A program made the position numbers and the translations under genes. From a virus, in IMG/VR virus record IMGVR_UViG_3300050821_004307, positions 1-37,622 of that record: a stretch of DNA of 37,622 bases; one strand, written 5' to 3'. Below, piece by piece: positions 21,374-34,371 of this stretch (its first letter is position 1; each line of letters starts with the position of its first letter). The notes beneath the pieces were generated by a model that worked only from the letters and a program-made list of their open reading frames with translations, was not told the DNA's origin and made no database searches.

Positions 21374-21694
21374 TCAATTACAGACTTGCCAGCAAAACGA
21401 GTAATCACTTGTGCATTGAGTGGAAATGGTACATGGGGGAGCAATGGGATTTGTGACTGGACTTGTTGAAATAACAGGAGGTGGCTGGGTTGAGCCAGTG
21501 ATTAAACTGGTGCTTCCATTGCCTCCAGGATCACGCTTACAGGCATTGAGACTAAACATGAAAAGAACCATGGAAGCTTTTAAAAGCTTGACGATAAATT
21601 TGGACATGGTCGTTTTCTCCTTTTTGGTTCGTTCTTTCAATTTCTTGTACAAGTCTTTCGGAATGTTCGCCATTACTCTGGGTAATTTTGTCAT
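21374..21694 (-). CDS. RHH protein running in frame into a lipoprotein
   Basis: A 106-aa frame. ATG 21694 has GAGGAG upstream. Residues 4-40 fit a ribbon-helix-helix fold: strand PRVMANIP, helix DLYKKLKERTKKEK, turn, helix TMSKFIVKLLKAS. A second in-frame ATG at 21607 has AAGGAG nine bases upstream. From there the product (77 aa) has a lipoprotein signal: MSKFIVKLLK, hydrophobic core, SLNAC lipobox with Cys at residue 23, then a Ser/Thr/Pro-rich tail with four Cys. The second RHH helix is therefore also the signal n-region. Either two products are made or only one start is used. The lysine-rich codons make the internal SD less certain. Confidence 0.65.
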   Translation of the reverse strand: MTKLPRVMANIPKDLYKKLKERTKKEKTTMSKFIVKLLKASMVLFMFSLNACKRDPGGNGSTSLITGSTQPPPVISTSPVTNPIAPPCTISTQCTSDYSFCWQVCN

Positions 21695-21714
21695 TGGATT
21701 CTCCTCTCAATTTA

Positions 21715-21743
21715 AGTGTAGCACCAAAGTGCAGCACTGTCAA
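21715..21743 (-). promoter_or_regulatory. Promoter of the leftward RHH/lipoprotein cassette, with operator-like palindromes
   Basis: Reading leftward, TTGACA (21743-21738) and TACACT (21720-21715) are separated by exactly 17 bases, and the predicted +1 is about 21708, 14 bases before the ATG at 21694. The spacer holds two overlapping palindromes on the plus strand: GCAC-CAAA-GTGC (21721-21732) and AGTGC-A-GCACT (21728-21738). An autorepressor such as the encoded RHH protein could bind here. The SD and ATG of the rightward gene at 21761 lie just behind the -35. Confidence 0.7.
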
Positions 21744-21760
21744 GGCCTAAAGGAGATCGT

Positions 21761-21997
21761 ATGAAACCCCCATCAAACAAGCCTAGTTTTGCACGTAAAG
21801 GTTTCTCGACTTTTCATGATCCATCAGGGACGTATCAGCCATTAGGAGTCCAGGACAAACAAGCAGGACTTCCTCAGAATCCTGCGAACGTAGTAGAGGC
21901 GGCAAAAGCGGATATTCAGAGTGCGCCGGATATGCTGGAACGACAACCGCAACAAAGAATTAGACGCTATGGAGGAATTTATGAAACCCCAGACTGA
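21761..21997 (+). CDS. Small hydrophilic protein
   Basis: A 78-aa protein with SD AAGGAG before ATG 21761. It is hydrophilic and rich in Pro, Gln and Lys, with no hydrophobic core, so it is probably disordered. It begins a run of four small, overlapping rightward genes. Its 3' end supplies the GGAGG for the next start. No family is recognised. Confidence 0.6.
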   Translation: MKPPSNKPSFARKGFSTFHDPSGTYQPLGVQDKQAGLPQNPANVVEAAKADIQSAPDMLERQPQQRIRRYGGIYETPD

Positions 21998-26332: not shown

Positions 26333-26411
26333 GCCACCACCGACAGAACCAGATCCAGATCGGCAACATCAGAACGGCTAATATGTTAAGAATCAGCTGT
26401 TTCTTTGACAT
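26325..26411 (-). CDS. 28-aa membrane peptide
   Basis: ATG 26411 has AGGAGA upstream. The peptide is MSKKQ, then a helix LILNILAVLMLPIWIWF, and a basic, Trp-rich end. It overlaps the 3' end of the nuclease-like gene by 26 bases and the next ORF by eight. It is the best supported of the three leftward membrane peptides because of the SD. Confidence 0.5.
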   Translation of the reverse strand: MSKKQLILNILAVLMLPIWIWFCRWWHE

Positions 26412-27060
26412 AAGGATTCTCCTGTGTATAGATAACCCCATCTTTTAGAACAAACTCTACTTCTCGGAGGCGATACATTTTCCGTTTTCCTTTTGCTCCG
26501 CGCAGGCACCAGGACCAAATGAAGAAACGATTTCCGGCTTTGAGCCATGTGGGAAGATACGGATTGGGTCCGTACATTTTTCCCTTCTGGACATCCACAT
26601 ACCCATCAAGGATTTTCTGGACATGGTTTTGCACATCTTCGCCGCACGCTTGCACACCTGTAACACCGACAAGGTCGGATCGGATGCCAACAAGATCAAT
26701 GAAGTTAAAAAGATCTTCTCTTCTCTTGGTATAGGGATTGTACGGCTTCTCGACGATCCAGGTGTCATAGCCCTGGCGTTTGAGTTCTTCGCGGCTTTTT
26801 TTAAGCGAGAACGTGGCACTCAATTGCTCCTGCTCCCGCTCCTGCTCCAGCTCCTGCTCCCGCTCCTGCTCCCGCTCCTGCTCCCGCTCCTGCTCCCGCT
26901 CCTGCTCCAGCTCCAGCTCCAGCTCCAGCTCCAGCTCCTGCTCCAGCTCCTGCTCCTGCTCCCGCTCCTGCTCCAGCTCCTGCTCCAGAGAGTATTTATG
27001 TTGGCTTGGATTGGGCTCATTTGGTTTCTTTGGGAACCTTATTTTCCCAAGGAAAAACAT
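26386..27060 (-). CDS. PD-(D/E)XK-like nuclease with variable hexanucleotide repeat
   Basis: A 224-aa frame. The first 25 residues are poorly supported as a start (no SD; ATG 27060). About 55 residues of Glu alternating with Gln, Arg or Leu follow, encoded by 27 hexamers. The C-terminal 130 residues have REELKRQGYDTWIVEKPYN, then REDLFNFIDLVGIR, VTGVQACGEDVQNHVQ and RFFIWSWCLRG. This matches the pattern of small phage VRR-NUC/resolvase-like proteins with a FIDL acid and a V-x-Q segment. It may act on recombination intermediates next to the Sak4-like gene. The repeat is likely to vary in length by slippage. Confidence 0.65.
   Translation of the reverse strand: MFFLGKIRFPKKPNEPNPSQHKYSLEQELEQEREQEQELEQELELELELELEQEREQEREQEREQEREQELEQEREQEQLSATFSLKKSREELKRQGYDTWIVEKPYNPYTKRREDLFNFIDLVGIRSDLVGVTGVQACGEDVQNHVQKILDGYVDVQKGKMYGPNPYLPTWLKAGNRFFIWSWCLRGAKGKRKMYRLREVEFVLKDGVIYTQENPYVKETADS
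26826..26987. repeat. 27 tandem hexamers GCTCCN
   Basis: On the plus strand 27 consecutive copies of GCTCCN occur, with N being T, C or A. On the minus strand they read GAG CNG, so each unit gives Glu followed by Gln, Arg or Leu. A change in unit number keeps the frame of the nuclease-like protein. Only one short gene segment is affected. The repeat may be hard to assemble, so the copy number seen could be off. Confidence 0.95.
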
Positions 27061-27735: not shown

Positions 27736-27872
27736 TTCGATTCTCCCTTTAATACCTTAATATCGAATCCTTTTGCTTTTAGAGCGATATCGCATACCTC
27801 GACGAATTCTGTTGGTATATCCCATGAGTCCTCAGCTTGTTTTCTTAATTCGAGAATTTCTTCGATAGTCAT
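27732..27872 (-). CDS. 46-aa small protein between ATPase and SSB-like genes
   Basis: ATG 27872 has GGGAG upstream and overlaps the ATPase stop by ATGA. Its TGA overlaps the SSB-like start by ATGA. The product is an acidic helix (MTIEEILELRKQAEDSW) and a short strand-helix. The double coupling suggests a stoichiometric partner of the neighbours. Unknown family. Confidence 0.6.
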   Translation of the reverse strand: MTIEEILELRKQAEDSWDIPTEFVEVCDIALKAKGFDIKVLKGESK

Positions 27873-28744
27873 TTCGTATCTCCCTTCAATTTCTTCGTGA
27901 GAAATTCCAAGAACTTCGTCGCGTTCTCTTTGCTCAGGTCATCAAGCTCTACCGCCTGAGCCTTTGCCAGCCATTTGTCTAAATCCTCTTGTGGGATTTT
28001 GAGGAGGTCGACAATTCTTTGGATTTCTGTAAGTTGTTCTGGCGTGGCAAGGATGATCGGTGCAACCTCTTCATCAATGACTGATGCTCCGTACAATTTT
28101 TGGAACGTTGGAAAGTCAAGGTTGATATCAGTAAATGCGGGGAATGCGTCAATTCGGCTCTTAGCAATGGTGGCGAACCGTTTGGTTCCGACCATTTTTG
28201 TTTGCAGCCACAAGTCCAGTTCATAATGCAGTTTTTTATACCCGTCATATGTTGATCCCGCATAGATTAACTCTCTTTCCCGTCGTTCCCATTTGTCTTT
28301 TTGGTGACAGATTAGAATCACGTTCATCGGCAATCGTTCGAGCCAGGTTAGAAGCTTGCGCGTTGGTTTATCTGCTTCTCTTTTATCTTTCCCGAAGTCT
28401 GACCCAATGCGGTCTTCCGCAGCAGCGGCTTCAAGGTTATAAAGTTTAGAGAAACTATCAATGACGAGAGTTCGATAAGGGTGCTTAGTGGTAGCAAGTT
28501 CTCGGATCTGGCCAAGGACTTCTTGAAAATCCTGACTGCCCTGTTCAGGACCGAAATACACGCCTTCCGCTTCTTTCAGTCGTTTGACATATTGCTCCCT
28601 TGTCGCGCCTGATTCTGTGTCAATAAAATACGGCGCAGGCCAGTTGAGACTGAAATATGTTTTCCCAGTCCCAGGTTCTCCTGATAGCATGATATGAGGC
28701 TTACGGGCTTTGACAACTTCCGGCTTGATTCCTTTGAGGGCCAT
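27869..28744 (-). CDS. RecA/Sak4-like AAA-family ATPase
   Basis: A 291-aa P-loop ATPase. Walker A is SGEPGTGKTY (21-30), Walker B is RTLVIDSFSK (91-100), and ILICHQKD (143-150) holds the sensor-like His/Gln. The order of motifs and the small size fit phage Sak4-type RecA paralogues, which anneal or pair single-stranded DNA for recombination. A C-terminal helical region (about 225-291) is likely a regulatory or oligomerisation domain. GGAG lies about nine bases before ATG. Neighbours include an SSB-like and a nuclease-like gene, together a recombination set. Confidence 0.8.
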   Translation of the reverse strand: MALKGIKPEVVKARKPHIMLSGEPGTGKTYFSLNWPAPYFIDTESGATREQYVKRLKEAEGVYFGPEQGSQDFQEVLGQIRELATTKHPYRTLVIDSFSKLYNLEAAAAEDRIGSDFGKDKREADKPTRKLLTWLERLPMNVILICHQKDKWERRERELIYAGSTYDGYKKLHYELDLWLQTKMVGTKRFATIAKSRIDAFPAFTDINLDFPTFQKLYGASVIDEEVAPIILATPEQLTEIQRIVDLLKIPQEDLDKWLAKAQAVELDDLSKENATKFLEFLTKKLKGDTK

Positions 28745-31322: not shown

Positions 31323-31526
31323 TTAGGCGACCGCTTCAGGCCAGATGTCAAAGAACCAATTCTTTCGATCTTGATACCTACGAATATTTCCTATTTGGTA
31401 CCACTGTTTAGGATGAACAGCCCCATATTTCTCTAGGGCTTTTTCAAATGAATTTGCATAAAGTATAACGTCCGCAATTGGCGAATGATTTAAGACATCT
31501 CGTTTCTGAATTCTAAAACTTTTCAT
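31323..31526 (-). CDS. Small early protein behind the second operator
   Basis: A 67-aa protein from ATG 31526, which has GGAGG eight bases upstream. An in-frame ATG at 31559 lies exactly on the predicted transcription start of the promoter at 31566-31594, so a leaderless 78-aa form is conceivable. The sequence is strand-helix-strand with Trp and Tyr (ADVILYANSFEKALEKYG). Unknown function. Confidence 0.65.
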   Translation of the reverse strand: MKSFRIQKRDVLNHSPIADVILYANSFEKALEKYGAVHPKQWYQIGNIRRYQDRKNWFFDIWPEAVA

Positions 31527-31565
31527 GGTCTTAACCTCCGTTGGGTTTGGCTTGTTCATATCAAT

Positions 31566-31594
31566 AGTCTAACATGACTTGTTAAACTTGTCAA
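31566..31594 (-). promoter_or_regulatory. Leftward early promoter with second operator
   Basis: TTGACA (31594-31589) and TAGACT (31571-31566) are 17 bases apart on the minus strand. The predicted +1 is 31559. A 22-bp element at 31573-31594 matches the operator at 31793-31814 at 18 of 22 positions (both begin CATGACTTG and end TTGTCAA). It covers the -35 and spacer, so a bound repressor would block RNA polymerase. Confidence 0.75.
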
Positions 31595-31597
31595 GTG

Positions 31598-31765
31598 TTA
31601 TTTTATGGGGTACGGAATATCTTTGATCCCAAGTTCTTCTTTAATGAGGTTGCGAATGGCTTCGCTGACGGGTGTAGAACCGGCCCAGCTCTTGATTCTA
31701 GCGGCTAATTCTTCGCCTTTTGCCCCAGAACCCAAAGAAAGAGTTATAGTGAAGTTACTAGACAT
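31598..31765 (-). CDS. RHH-type regulator, candidate early repressor
   Basis: A 55-aa protein, too short for many gene finders. GGAGGA lies about eight bases before ATG 31765. It has a strand NFTITLSLG, a helix GEELAARIKSWAGS, a Thr-Pro-Val turn and a helix SEAIRNLIKEELG, the plan of Arc/CopG ribbon-helix-helix proteins, which act as dimers and bind paired short DNA sites with the strand. It lies between two copies of a 22-bp operator and is driven by a promoter inside one of them, so autorepression is likely. Its target is inferred from location. Confidence 0.7.
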   Translation of the reverse strand: MSSNFTITLSLGSGAKGEELAARIKSWAGSTPVSEAIRNLIKEELGIKDIPYPIK

Positions 31766-31785
31766 TATTATGTCCTCCTAATATA

Positions 31786-31814
31786 AACATAGCATGACTT
31801 GACAAGTTTGTCAA
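31786..31814 (-). promoter_or_regulatory. Leftward promoter of the RHH regulator
   Basis: On the minus strand TTGACA (31814-31809), 17 bases, then TATGTT (31791-31786). The +1 is about 31779, at the start of the SD, giving a leader of only 14 bases. The -35 is the right arm of the palindrome at 31799-31814. Confidence 0.8.
31793..31814. promoter_or_regulatory. Operator shared by two divergent promoters
   Basis: The 16-bp sequence TTGACAAGTTTGTCAA (31799-31814) is a perfect inverted repeat with seven-base arms and a two-base centre. The left arm is the -35 of the rightward promoter, the right arm the -35 of the leftward one. A smaller palindrome ACTTG-A-CAAGT (31797-31807) overlaps it. With the flanking CATGA the 22-bp element recurs at 31573-31594. 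One bound dimer or tetramer could shut both directions. Confidence 0.75.
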
Positions 31815-31827
31815 TACCTGATATGCT
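31799..31827 (+). promoter_or_regulatory. Rightward early promoter
   Basis: TTGACA (31799-31804), a 17-base spacer, and TATGCT (31822-31827). The predicted +1 is A31834. It drives the RyR-domain gene after a structured leader of about 94 bases. Its -35 is the left arm of the shared operator. Confidence 0.8.
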
Positions 31828-31833
31828 TGTCTC

Positions 31834-31927
31834 AGATGGCCCTGCGTGACCGAATGGGAGAAGGGTGAAGTCACCGTATGGTGCGCTAAGTCCCTCCAGG
31901 GCCTTTCCCATTTCAAAAGGAGAAACG
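31834..31927 (+). ncRNA. Structured leader RNA before the RyR-domain gene (pseudoknot topology)
   Basis: The predicted transcript begins AGATG. GGCCCTG (31838-31844) can pair with CAGGGCC (31897-31903), and AATGGGA (31853-31859) with TCCCATT (31906-31912). The pairs are interleaved, which gives an H-type pseudoknot. Between them GGTG/CACC (31864-31875) can form a small hairpin. The last arm ends four bases before the SD AAGGAG (31917-31922), so folding could affect translation start. Each seven-base pair alone could be chance; the shared layout of three leaders is the stronger argument. Confidence 0.45.
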
Positions 31928-32284
31928 ATGAACCTCAAAGAACGTCGAGCATGGTTTGTTTATGAAGCCGCTCGTATAGAAAATACAGTCGCCAAACGTC
32001 CTATCAATCCAGAAGTATGGGAAAAACGTGATTTTAAATTCAGACAAAACATGATCCGTGCTGTCGATGACCAATGTGGACTCAAACGACTGACTTCACC
32101 AAGTGCCTTGCATAAAAAATGGGTTAAAGCCTATGAAAAGATGGGATGGAAATATGGACGCAAACGGGATGTAAAATTGAAAACCCACCCTGATATGGTT
32201 CCTTTTGAAAACCTGGGACGCAAAGAACAAGAAAAAGATTGGGTCTTTTTTATGCTCTGTGAAATTGCTCGGAAGATTAAATGA
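31928..32284 (+). CDS. RyR-domain protein
   Basis: A 118-aa protein with AAGGAG six bases before ATG 31928; an earlier in-frame start at 31865 would lie inside the leader. The C-terminal half has KKWVKAYEKMGWKYG, then RDVKLKTHPDMVPFENL and KEQEKDWVFF. This matches the RyR (ryanodine receptor) domain, in which the G-x-x-x-D, K-T-H-P and P-x-x-x-L residues are typical. Such small RyR proteins are known from phages, where the ligand is unknown. As the first gene of the rightward early transcript it may act on host signalling or metabolism. Confidence 0.8.
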   Translation: MNLKERRAWFVYEAARIENTVAKRPINPEVWEKRDFKFRQNMIRAVDDQCGLKRLTSPSALHKKWVKAYEKMGWKYGRKRDVKLKTHPDMVPFENLGRKEQEKDWVFFMLCEIARKIK

Positions 32285-32455: not shown

Positions 32456-33637
32456 GTGACTTTCACAGAAGAATTTGTGGCGTATGCCAGAGAATCAACA
32501 GACTCGCCGGAAGACTTATTGTGGTGGGGTGGTATCTTGGCAATCTCAAGCGTTTTAGGCCGCAAAGTGTCTTTTAAGCATGGTCGCCGCTCGCAATTCC
32601 CAAACTTATGGCTGTTGCTTGTAGGGCCTTCTTCGATTCACAAATCAACAGCTCTTGATTTGATGCTTGATCTGGCCCAGGAAATTAATTCTGAAATTGA
32701 ATATCCACAAGATTGGTCAACGCAATCCCTATTTCTCGATATTCAGCATATGCCGCATGGGATGTTTGTATACGACGAAGCCAAACAATTTTTTGATATC
32801 TGTTCCCAAACCTATAACGTCGGCTCTATGTCGATGATTACTTCATTGTTCGAGCGCGGGACGTGTTCTGTCACTCGCGTCAAAAAAGAAAAGGGACAAC
32901 CGCGAACAAGTCAACGTGAAGTGTTAAGTAACGCCTATCTTTGCTTCGGAGGAGCATCAACGGCAGAATGGCTTTTATCGGGAATTCAAGACAAAAAGTC
33001 TGCCGTCTTGTCAGGCTTTCTGCCCCGTTTTCTTTTTGCCTACCACGCCAAACAGATCGACAATTTCAAACCCTGGTTTCTCCCACCCGACGAAATGAAA
33101 CGGCAAGTTCTCCTTGATAAGCTACGCTTTTTTTGTTCCTTATCCGGCGAAATCGCTTACGACCCTGACGCCGCGAAACTCTACGAAGAATGGTATGCAG
33201 GCCAACGCCTCAAATCACAACTGGCTGAAAAAAGTGAGCCGATGGTCACGCCATTCTTGAATAAGATTCGGGATGTCTATTCTCATAAGCTCGCCATGAT
33301 CGCGTCCGTCGATATCGGAGATTTCCCAGCCATCACCGTTCGGGCATGGAACCACGCCGAGAAAATGTTGGATATGGCGGAAACATCTATCCGTAAATTA
33401 ATAGGTTCACTGGTCGAAACAGAATGGGACAAAATGCGCCGGAAAGCTGTGGAGTTTCTTTCAGATCGCTTGGATTGCTCCCGCGAAGAATTCGGCGATG
33501 CGACAAAGATCAGAGGCAAAGCGGCGGATAATGTGTTGACGGGATTGATGAACGACGGCAAAATTGTCATGAAAAAAGTCGAGAAGTCCACAAAACCGTT
33601 AACCGTCATTCAGTGGGTGGGCAATGGATCATCATAA
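32456..33637 (+). CDS. DUF3987-type helicase/primase-related ATPase
   Basis: A 393-aa protein from GTG 32456 with AGGAGGG directly upstream. The N-terminal domain has a P-loop-like GPSSIHKST (57-65) and FVYDEAKQFF (104-113) as Walker B, as in DUF3987 proteins related to replicative helicases. The DEAK acidic pair would hydrolyse ATP. The C-terminal part (about 300-393) looks like a small winged helix with basic residues. It probably opens DNA at the phage origin and works with the CHC2 protein downstream. Confidence 0.75.
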   Translation: MTFTEEFVAYARESTDSPEDLLWWGGILAISSVLGRKVSFKHGRRSQFPNLWLLLVGPSSIHKSTALDLMLDLAQEINSEIEYPQDWSTQSLFLDIQHMPHGMFVYDEAKQFFDICSQTYNVGSMSMITSLFERGTCSVTRVKKEKGQPRTSQREVLSNAYLCFGGASTAEWLLSGIQDKKSAVLSGFLPRFLFAYHAKQIDNFKPWFLPPDEMKRQVLLDKLRFFCSLSGEIAYDPDAAKLYEEWYAGQRLKSQLAEKSEPMVTPFLNKIRDVYSHKLAMIASVDIGDFPAITVRAWNHAEKMLDMAETSIRKLIGSLVETEWDKMRRKAVEFLSDRLDCSREEFGDATKIRGKAADNVLTGLMNDGKIVMKKVEKSTKPLTVIQWVGNGSS

Positions 33638-33779
33638 GTGCTGGCGATGCCGGTATAGCTATCCGATTCCGTTGGTCGGCATGATGTTATGCGAAAGATG
33701 CTGGTTGCGTTTGGAACGAGATTGTATCAAACAATGGGCAAAGGAGAATCTCGATGAGAACGGACAAATAATTGGATGA
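33624..33779 (+). CDS. 51-aa zinc-ribbon protein in the replication module
   Basis: ATG 33624 overlaps the helicase 3' end by 14 bases. The product has HHKCWRC (residues 3-9) and CERC (23-26), a four-Cys zinc ribbon, then a charged helix. Its 3' end overlaps the next gene by eight bases. It fills the gap between helicase and CHC2 genes. Confidence 0.65.
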   Translation: MDHHKCWRCRYSYPIPLVGMMLCERCWLRLERDCIKQWAKENLDENGQIIG

Positions 33780-34371
33780 ACTTTATGATCGGGCTTCAGT
33801 CGTTCCTGGCTGGCTGTCGTATTTGTTAGATGCCAAAGCAATCAATGATGATGAAGCATCCTATCTCATTTGGCGTGATGAATGTGACGCGCCTGTTAAG
33901 AAGAAGTTGCGAATCTGGGAAGCGCAGATCGAATCGCATGGCGGAATTGAATTAGAGAACGCCGAAACGCCGGAAGAACAACTGATGGCTGTGACAAATC
34001 GTATTCATTCCATTGATAAGAAATGTGTTGGAATGGGCTATCCAATTGCGGAAGCGTTACGTGAAATCGGACGGTATCGACAACTCGTTTCGTTACGTGC
34101 TCAATTGCGGATGCAATTAGAACCGCCGAAAATGATGGCGAAAGAACTAATTGAAAAAGCACGGGCTTACAGGCTTGATGATCTCTTGAAAGGTAAACTC
34201 AAAAAAAAGTTTATGTTGTGTCCTGTTCATGGAGAAGATCATGGCTCGTTTTATGTGACGGCTTATGGGTTTTGTTTTGGGTGTCTGCGGTCCTGGAACT
34301 CCATTGGCTGGCTCATGGATTTTGAGAAAATGATGTTCAAACAAGCAGTGGAATATCTTGCCAGTTTATAG
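33772..34371 (+). CDS. CHC2-type primase zinc-domain protein
   Basis: A 199-aa protein from TTG 33772 (no SD; overlaps the upstream gene). The C-terminal part has FMLCPVHGEDHGSF (147-160) and FCFGCLRS (167-174), which gives C150, H153, C168 and C171, the zinc site of bacterial and phage primases. FKQAVEYL at the end is also typical. The catalytic TOPRIM domain is missing. The N-terminal 130 residues are helical. With the helicase it may form a split primase, or recruit host primase. Confidence 0.8.
   Translation: MDELYDRASVVPGWLSYLLDAKAINDDEASYLIWRDECDAPVKKKLRIWEAQIESHGGIELENAETPEEQLMAVTNRIHSIDKKCVGMGYPIAEALREIGRYRQLVSLRAQLRMQLEPPKMMAKELIEKARAYRLDDLLKGKLKKKFMLCPVHGEDHGSFYVTAYGFCFGCLRSWNSIGWLMDFEKMMFKQAVEYLASL

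Follow-up and report, generated by a model that had tools for sequence, protein, structure and literature searches.

Divergent early promoters with their -35 boxes on the two arms of one palindrome look like a compact shared off-switch in a phage genome

At the early junction of a phage genome, two promoters of opposite direction, PR and PL1, overlap back to back, and their -35 boxes are the two arms of one palindrome (site A); a related site (site B) lies at a further leftward promoter, PL2. The junction has the look of a compact off-switch for both sides, of a general kind that is already known, in which overlapping divergent promoters have a shared operator, and a shared operator is likely here. 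In the reading that we prefer, to which we assign a probability of about one half, PR, PL1 and PL2 would share an operator that is worked through sites A and B by a small phage DNA-binding protein, most likely that of the first left gene, in addition to exclusion between RNA polymerases.

The window, that is, the whole stretch of DNA analyzed, is the complete record IMGVR_UViG_3300050821_004307 of 37,622 bases. Its first and last 54 bases form a direct repeat with one mismatch, indicating that the phage genome is circularly closed. Late genes (terminase, portal and capsid) and replication genes are read rightward, and a set of small genes occupies about 31.8-25.3 kb and runs leftward. The PR/PL1 site sits between the 55-aa gene and the RyR-domain gene, in the main divergent gap of the genome; a minor second divergent gap is present at 21694-21761. 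We take the junction to be the early control region of a lytic-looking phage. A host or prophage was sought by a capsid search in bacterial and archaeal genomes, which gave no match. The genes that bear on the analysis are as follows.

31598-31765, minus strand: first leftward gene, 55-aa protein, candidate autoregulator, by eye only like a ribbon-helix-helix (RHH) protein
31323-31526, minus strand: leftward gene after the 55-aa gene, without assigned function and with zero matches in Pfam and PHROG searches (68 aa if read from an ATG with a Shine-Dalgarno sequence, 78 aa if the ATG at 31559 is used)
27869-28744, minus strand: Sak4-like ssDNA annealing ATPase, a member of the leftward early set (Pfam and PHROG searches)
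21374-21694, minus strand: 106-aa ORF, RHH/Arc-like (RHH_5, E 5e-4; Arc-like repressor PHROG, E 0.005)
31928-32284, plus strand: first rightward gene, RyR-domain protein of 118 aa, ATG with AGGAG (Pfam PF02026, E 4e-9; PHROG 5154)
32456-33637, plus strand: replication gene, DUF3987, primase/helicase type (Pfam and PHROG searches)
33772-34371, plus strand: CHC2 zinc-finger primase gene, next after the DUF3987 gene (Pfam and PHROG searches)

The promoters and sites of the early region are listed likewise.

31799-31814, no strand: palindrome TTGACAAGTTTGTCAA, putative operator A (site A), both arms being -35 boxes; the sole perfect TTGACAN4TGTCAA in the genome
31799-31827, plus strand: PR, predicted rightward early promoter; TTGACA at 31799-31804, 17 bp, TATGCT at 31822-31827; extended -10 TGA; predicted start near 31834
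31786-31814, minus strand: PL1, predicted leftward early promoter; TTGACA at 31814-31809, 17 bp, TATGTT at 31791-31786; extended -10 TGC; predicted start near 31779
31570-31595, no strand: site B, putative operator B; second copy TAACATGACTTGTTAAACTTGTCAAG (80% identity over 25 nt), with the dyad CTTGNNAANNTTNNCAAG exact at 31578-31595
31566-31594, minus strand: PL2, predicted second leftward promoter; TTGACA-17-TAGACT; extended -10 TG; predicted start near 31559

The original prediction, made from the sequence, placed TTGACA on both strands of one palindrome with a -10 box exactly 17 bases away from each arm, and both parts were borne out, at 31799-31814 and with TATGCT and TATGTT, respectively. 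The 16-mer of site A pairs at 7 of 8 positions and spans both -35 boxes. PR and PL1 each score 10/12 plus the extended -10, and both rank among the top three promoter-like sites of the 25-37.6 kb scanned. Because the rightward -35 lies left of the leftward one, with each -35 inside the spacer of the other promoter, PR and PL1 overlap in such a way that two RNA polymerases would be unable to bind at once. The two -10 boxes are 30 bp apart and the predicted starts about 55 bp apart, while the arm centers of site A are spaced by 10 bp, about one helical turn, a spacing that would suit a dimer or a dimer of dimers. With zero mismatches, TTGACAN4TGTCAA occurs once in the 37.6 kb, at site A, and TTGACAN0-12TGTCAA is expected at a mean of 0.05 per genome from dinucleotide shuffles. 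The junction DNA showed no similarity to known phages, and the exact 23-mer of site A was absent from viral contigs outside its own record. A terminator scan for an attenuator downstream of PR found none, and Rfam returned for the junction a single sub-threshold CRISPR-repeat match, which was taken as chance.

Site B lies past the 55-aa gene and ahead of the next left gene, where it forms PL2, a third strong promoter. One arm of site B reads TTGTTA and is no longer a -35, and the symmetric CTTG..AA..TT..CAAG is kept; this second copy of the site at PL2, which retains the partial dyad despite a single -35, is a new observation. PL1 and PL2 share 12 of 17 spacer positions (p=0.00025), a likeness that lies outside the -35 and -10 boxes. 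The other strong TTGACA promoter (21743, minus strand) showed no likeness of this kind (p 0.2-0.6). When PR is compared with PL1, the p-values come out too strong, because the two promoters are read off the same dyad.

Related phages were found via their terminase and capsid proteins. Exact CTTGNNAANNTTNNCAAG gave two matches in 14 related records, one at PL2 of the window and one in the divergent gap of record G002 (terminase at 90%, early genes largely different), while 0.0 exact matches are expected per 37.6 kb, for a dyad pattern that was drawn up after sites A, B and the G002 site were known. The G002 site is identical to site B at 16/18 positions in the same orientation, and that the only exact match in G002 falls in its divergent gap is likewise new. 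As site B and the G002 site have only one good -35 arm, the symmetry is more than a by-product of two promoters. The dyad site was absent from two further relatives in which it was sought (G005 and G011), and the G002 record of 33.9 kb, possibly incomplete, contained no homologue of the 55-aa protein. The original prediction is thus supported in part, with divergent promoters on one palindrome at the early junction and a dyad that recurs at PL2 and in G002 and fits an operator; what so far lacks support is that the 55-aa protein belongs to the RHH proteins and binds at this site.

The 55-aa protein has no relative in Pfam, NCBIfam or the PDB even at loose thresholds, and its AF2 model is poor. 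Searches against Pfam and NCBIfam gave no family match; a loose six-frame search of the one genome with RHH_1 and NikA-like profiles gave nothing at this protein even at E 10; comparison with the RHH proteins of the relatives gave no match and a non-significant hhalign result; and no close relatives were found in viral contigs and phages. Matches from a PDB sequence search were judged to be chance. The AF2 model, built from the single sequence at low confidence (pLDDT 65), has helices at 15-27 and 33-45 and no strand, and these helices fall where they are expected for RHH. The best Foldseek match of this model was the RHH regulator AvtR at E 1.3, which is not evidence, and the viral library was uninformative.

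In G012, the first leftward-equivalent gene encodes 54 aa with a Pfam NikA-like match (PF21983, RHH family) above the cut-off. Beside this RHH gene, divergent promoters overlap around TTGTACATTTGTCAA, and after it stands a PL2-like promoter that is 13/15 complementary to the junction site, although the likeness within the G012 site pairs is mostly TTGACAA itself (p 0.03-0.45). A PL2-like promoter also lies 3′ of the first gene of G011, whose product is weakly RHH-like. The overlapping divergent promoters by a Pfam-supported RHH gene in G012 and the PL2-like promoters after the RHH gene in both relatives are new observations. The divergent -35 boxes of G011 do not overlap, being about 5 bp apart with a weak PL1 assignment (TTGATT, by eye), and those of G014 are 46 bp apart; therefore, -35 overlap is not essential in this phage group, and comparison of G011, G012 and G014 indicates that a small regulator between two left promoters is more widely shared than the exact overlap. 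The positional counterparts of the 55-aa gene in G011 and G012 speak for an RHH regulator in this position of the gene order. In addition, a gene that probably encodes an HNH endonuclease is inserted in G012 (L035:2928-3224), where it separates PL2 from the next left gene.

In the window, sigma70-type promoters on opposite strands overlap, one dyad covers key elements of both, the site recurs at PL2 and in G002, and a small gene, that of the 55-aa protein, adjoins site A. At Tn10 tetR/tetA, overlapping divergent promoters have a shared operator. In this system and at E. coli acrR/acrA, opposite promoters overlap as they do here; there, one repressor on shared DNA silences both and is itself encoded by one of the two divergent genes, whereas repression at the phage junction is a proposal. 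At acrR/acrA, where AcrR represses both RNAs of the overlapping divergent promoters (PMC12825309), the -10 is shared, while in the phage each -35 is in the spacer of the other promoter and the -35 boxes are palindrome arms. The Pc/Pr pair of pLS20 from Bacillus subtilis, in which one promoter has its -10 where its partner has the -35 (PMC4207663), also has overlapping divergent promoters, one of them for a regulator (a candidate here), and several operators (putative here). Pr of pLS20 is a weak promoter that requires an activator, and RcoLS20 loops the DNA (PMC4207663); in contrast, both phage promoters are near consensus. MobC of plasmid RA3, a small RHH protein, represses its own promoter via an imperfect palindrome between -35 and -10 (PMC4175270). 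Similar to the MobC operator, the dyad of PL1 and PL2 lies between -35 and -10, and the G012 counterpart belongs to the NikA-like RHH family; however, MobC is 176 aa long and functions in conjugation, and the 55-aa protein matches no RHH profile. Finally, the bidirectional promoters of Warman et al. share a symmetric -10 and have starts 7-25 bp apart, most often 18 (PMC12825309, PMC10268837). As at these promoters, short symmetric DNA would send RNA polymerase both ways with steric exclusion, but at the phage junction the shared element is the -35 pair and the starts lie about 55 bp apart, which falls outside the definition of that class.

The layout was then sought elsewhere by scanning viral contigs for ANNNTA-N7-TTGACA-N4-TGTCAA-N7-TANNNT. 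This 42-bp layout was present in at least 119 viral contigs, against only a few expected by a rough estimate from base composition. Among the matches listed, 80 loci were read, and most lie upstream of one conserved gene, which annotated records identify as gp55, the late sigma factor of T4-like cyanophages. Further, 21 annotated cyanophage records, picked by similarity of the gene region and not by the pattern, showed a perfect TTGACA-N4-TGTCAA upstream of gp55 in nine and one mismatch at the same spacing in two more. A reverse-direction -10, mostly TAGAAT, is found in most of the 21, including several without the full palindrome. Like the phage junction, the cyanophage region has -10 elements about 17 bp off both sides of the palindrome; unlike it, the palindrome stands between co-directional genes with no regulator gene beside it, and the second promoter would be antisense, with a transcript running into the upstream gene. 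Nothing on palindromes at cyanophage gene 55 was found in the literature searched. The gp55-region observation covers L039-L118, most of which come from this region, and L158-L178. Outside this group, an unrelated phage (L047) has a divergent gap that contains the perfect layout and, next to it, a 58-aa RHH-like ORF, whose PHROG repressor matches reach only E 0.05-0.08; in L088 the layout adjoins a ParA-like gene, and several other matches fall within genes and look like chance. Tentatively, and with doubt prevailing, the palindromic double -35 could be a control module that recurs in phages and has more than one origin, at early junctions of small phages with small DNA-binding proteins (this window, L047 and, loosely, G012) and as a sense/antisense pair at the cyanophage late-sigma gene; two transcripts would be controlled jointly, either by a single binding event or by exclusion of RNA polymerase.

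We infer that the dyad is an operator, that a protein binds it and that repression is the outcome. The proposed mechanism starts from sigma70-type PR on the replication side and PL1 on the leftward side, overlapping back to back with their -35 boxes as arms of an operator-like dyad, and from PL2 just past the first left gene, which would be the same site minus one -35. Before the repressor builds up, host RNA polymerase would fill PR or PL1, one at a time, and the two sides would compete. A small phage protein, most likely the product of the first left gene, would then bind sites A and B and block PR, PL1 and PL2 together, by which the repressor would autoregulate its own synthesis and turn down both early gene sets.

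A bidirectional promoter without a dedicated repressor is a possible alternative that we consider clearly less probable: the symmetry would reflect two strong promoters packed in little DNA, and control would be mutual exclusion of RNA polymerases. The PR/PL1 overlap, which makes simultaneous binding impossible, is consistent with this, as are the polymerase competition documented at bidirectional promoters (PMC12825309) and the co-directional cyanophage gp55 layout with no regulator gene beside it. However, packing of two promoters does not account for a dyad kept at site B and in G002 with one good -35, or for a likeness between sites that extends into the spacers. It is highly improbable that two unrelated promoters face each other palindromically by chance; TTGACA boxes are common, with 4 exact TTGACA promoters observed genome-wide vs. 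1.6 expected, but none of 1000 dinucleotide shuffles produced overlapping divergent promoters that both had an exact TTGACA, and the position of the pair, right at the divergent gap, and the second copy of the site at PL2 also speak against chance.

Somewhat less probable than control by polymerase exclusion alone, and unlikely in our view, is an operator bound by another phage protein, the 106-aa ORF at 21374-21694, or by a host regulator. Within the genome, the 106-aa ORF indeed gives the best RHH/Arc-like match, and the site occurs in G002, where no homologue of the 55-aa protein was found. Nevertheless, the ORF is served by a separate promoter at 21743 whose palindromes, AGTGCTGCACT and GCACTTTGGTGC, differ from sites A and B, and in G011 and G012 it is the gene adjoining the junction that is RHH-like. 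The first 42 residues of the ORF give the weak match to RHH_5/Arc-like repressors, and near residue 30 a further ATG in the same frame, which has a separate Shine-Dalgarno sequence, starts a lipoprotein-like signal. This internal start places the role of the ORF in doubt, and the reading frame may give two proteins.

If the preferred reading, a shared operator worked by a small phage protein, is true, one 16-bp site shuts down the replication-side transcript, the leftward early transcripts and its own regulator together, and the PL2 repeat extends the shutdown to the remaining left genes. The junction is also a clear, small test system for the balance of overlapping promoters and shared operators. 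The recurrence at the cyanophage late-sigma gene was unexpected and suggests that promoters with symmetric -35 pairs may form a class that has received too little notice.

Several minor observations concern the rightward side and the other early genes. In the PR leader (31838-31913), crossing helices GGCCCTG/CAGGGCC and GAATGGGAGA/TTTCCCATTT just before the ribosome-binding site of the RyR gene form a possible pseudoknot, a comparable one being obtained in 3/500 shuffles; nested folding of the leader was ordinary (z -0.4). At 31836-31868, a 10-codon ORF, MALRDRMGEG, begins some 2 bases downstream of the start predicted for PR and could be a leaderless leader peptide. The closest relatives of the RyR-domain protein, at 75% identity, occur in unrelated viral contigs, which suggests a horizontal spread of this protein; the relatives L002-L006 have unrelated gene orders, and the site is absent from them. 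The product of 26386-27060 carries in its N-terminal half a long, nearly pure Glu/Gln/Leu repeat (ELEQEREQE...).
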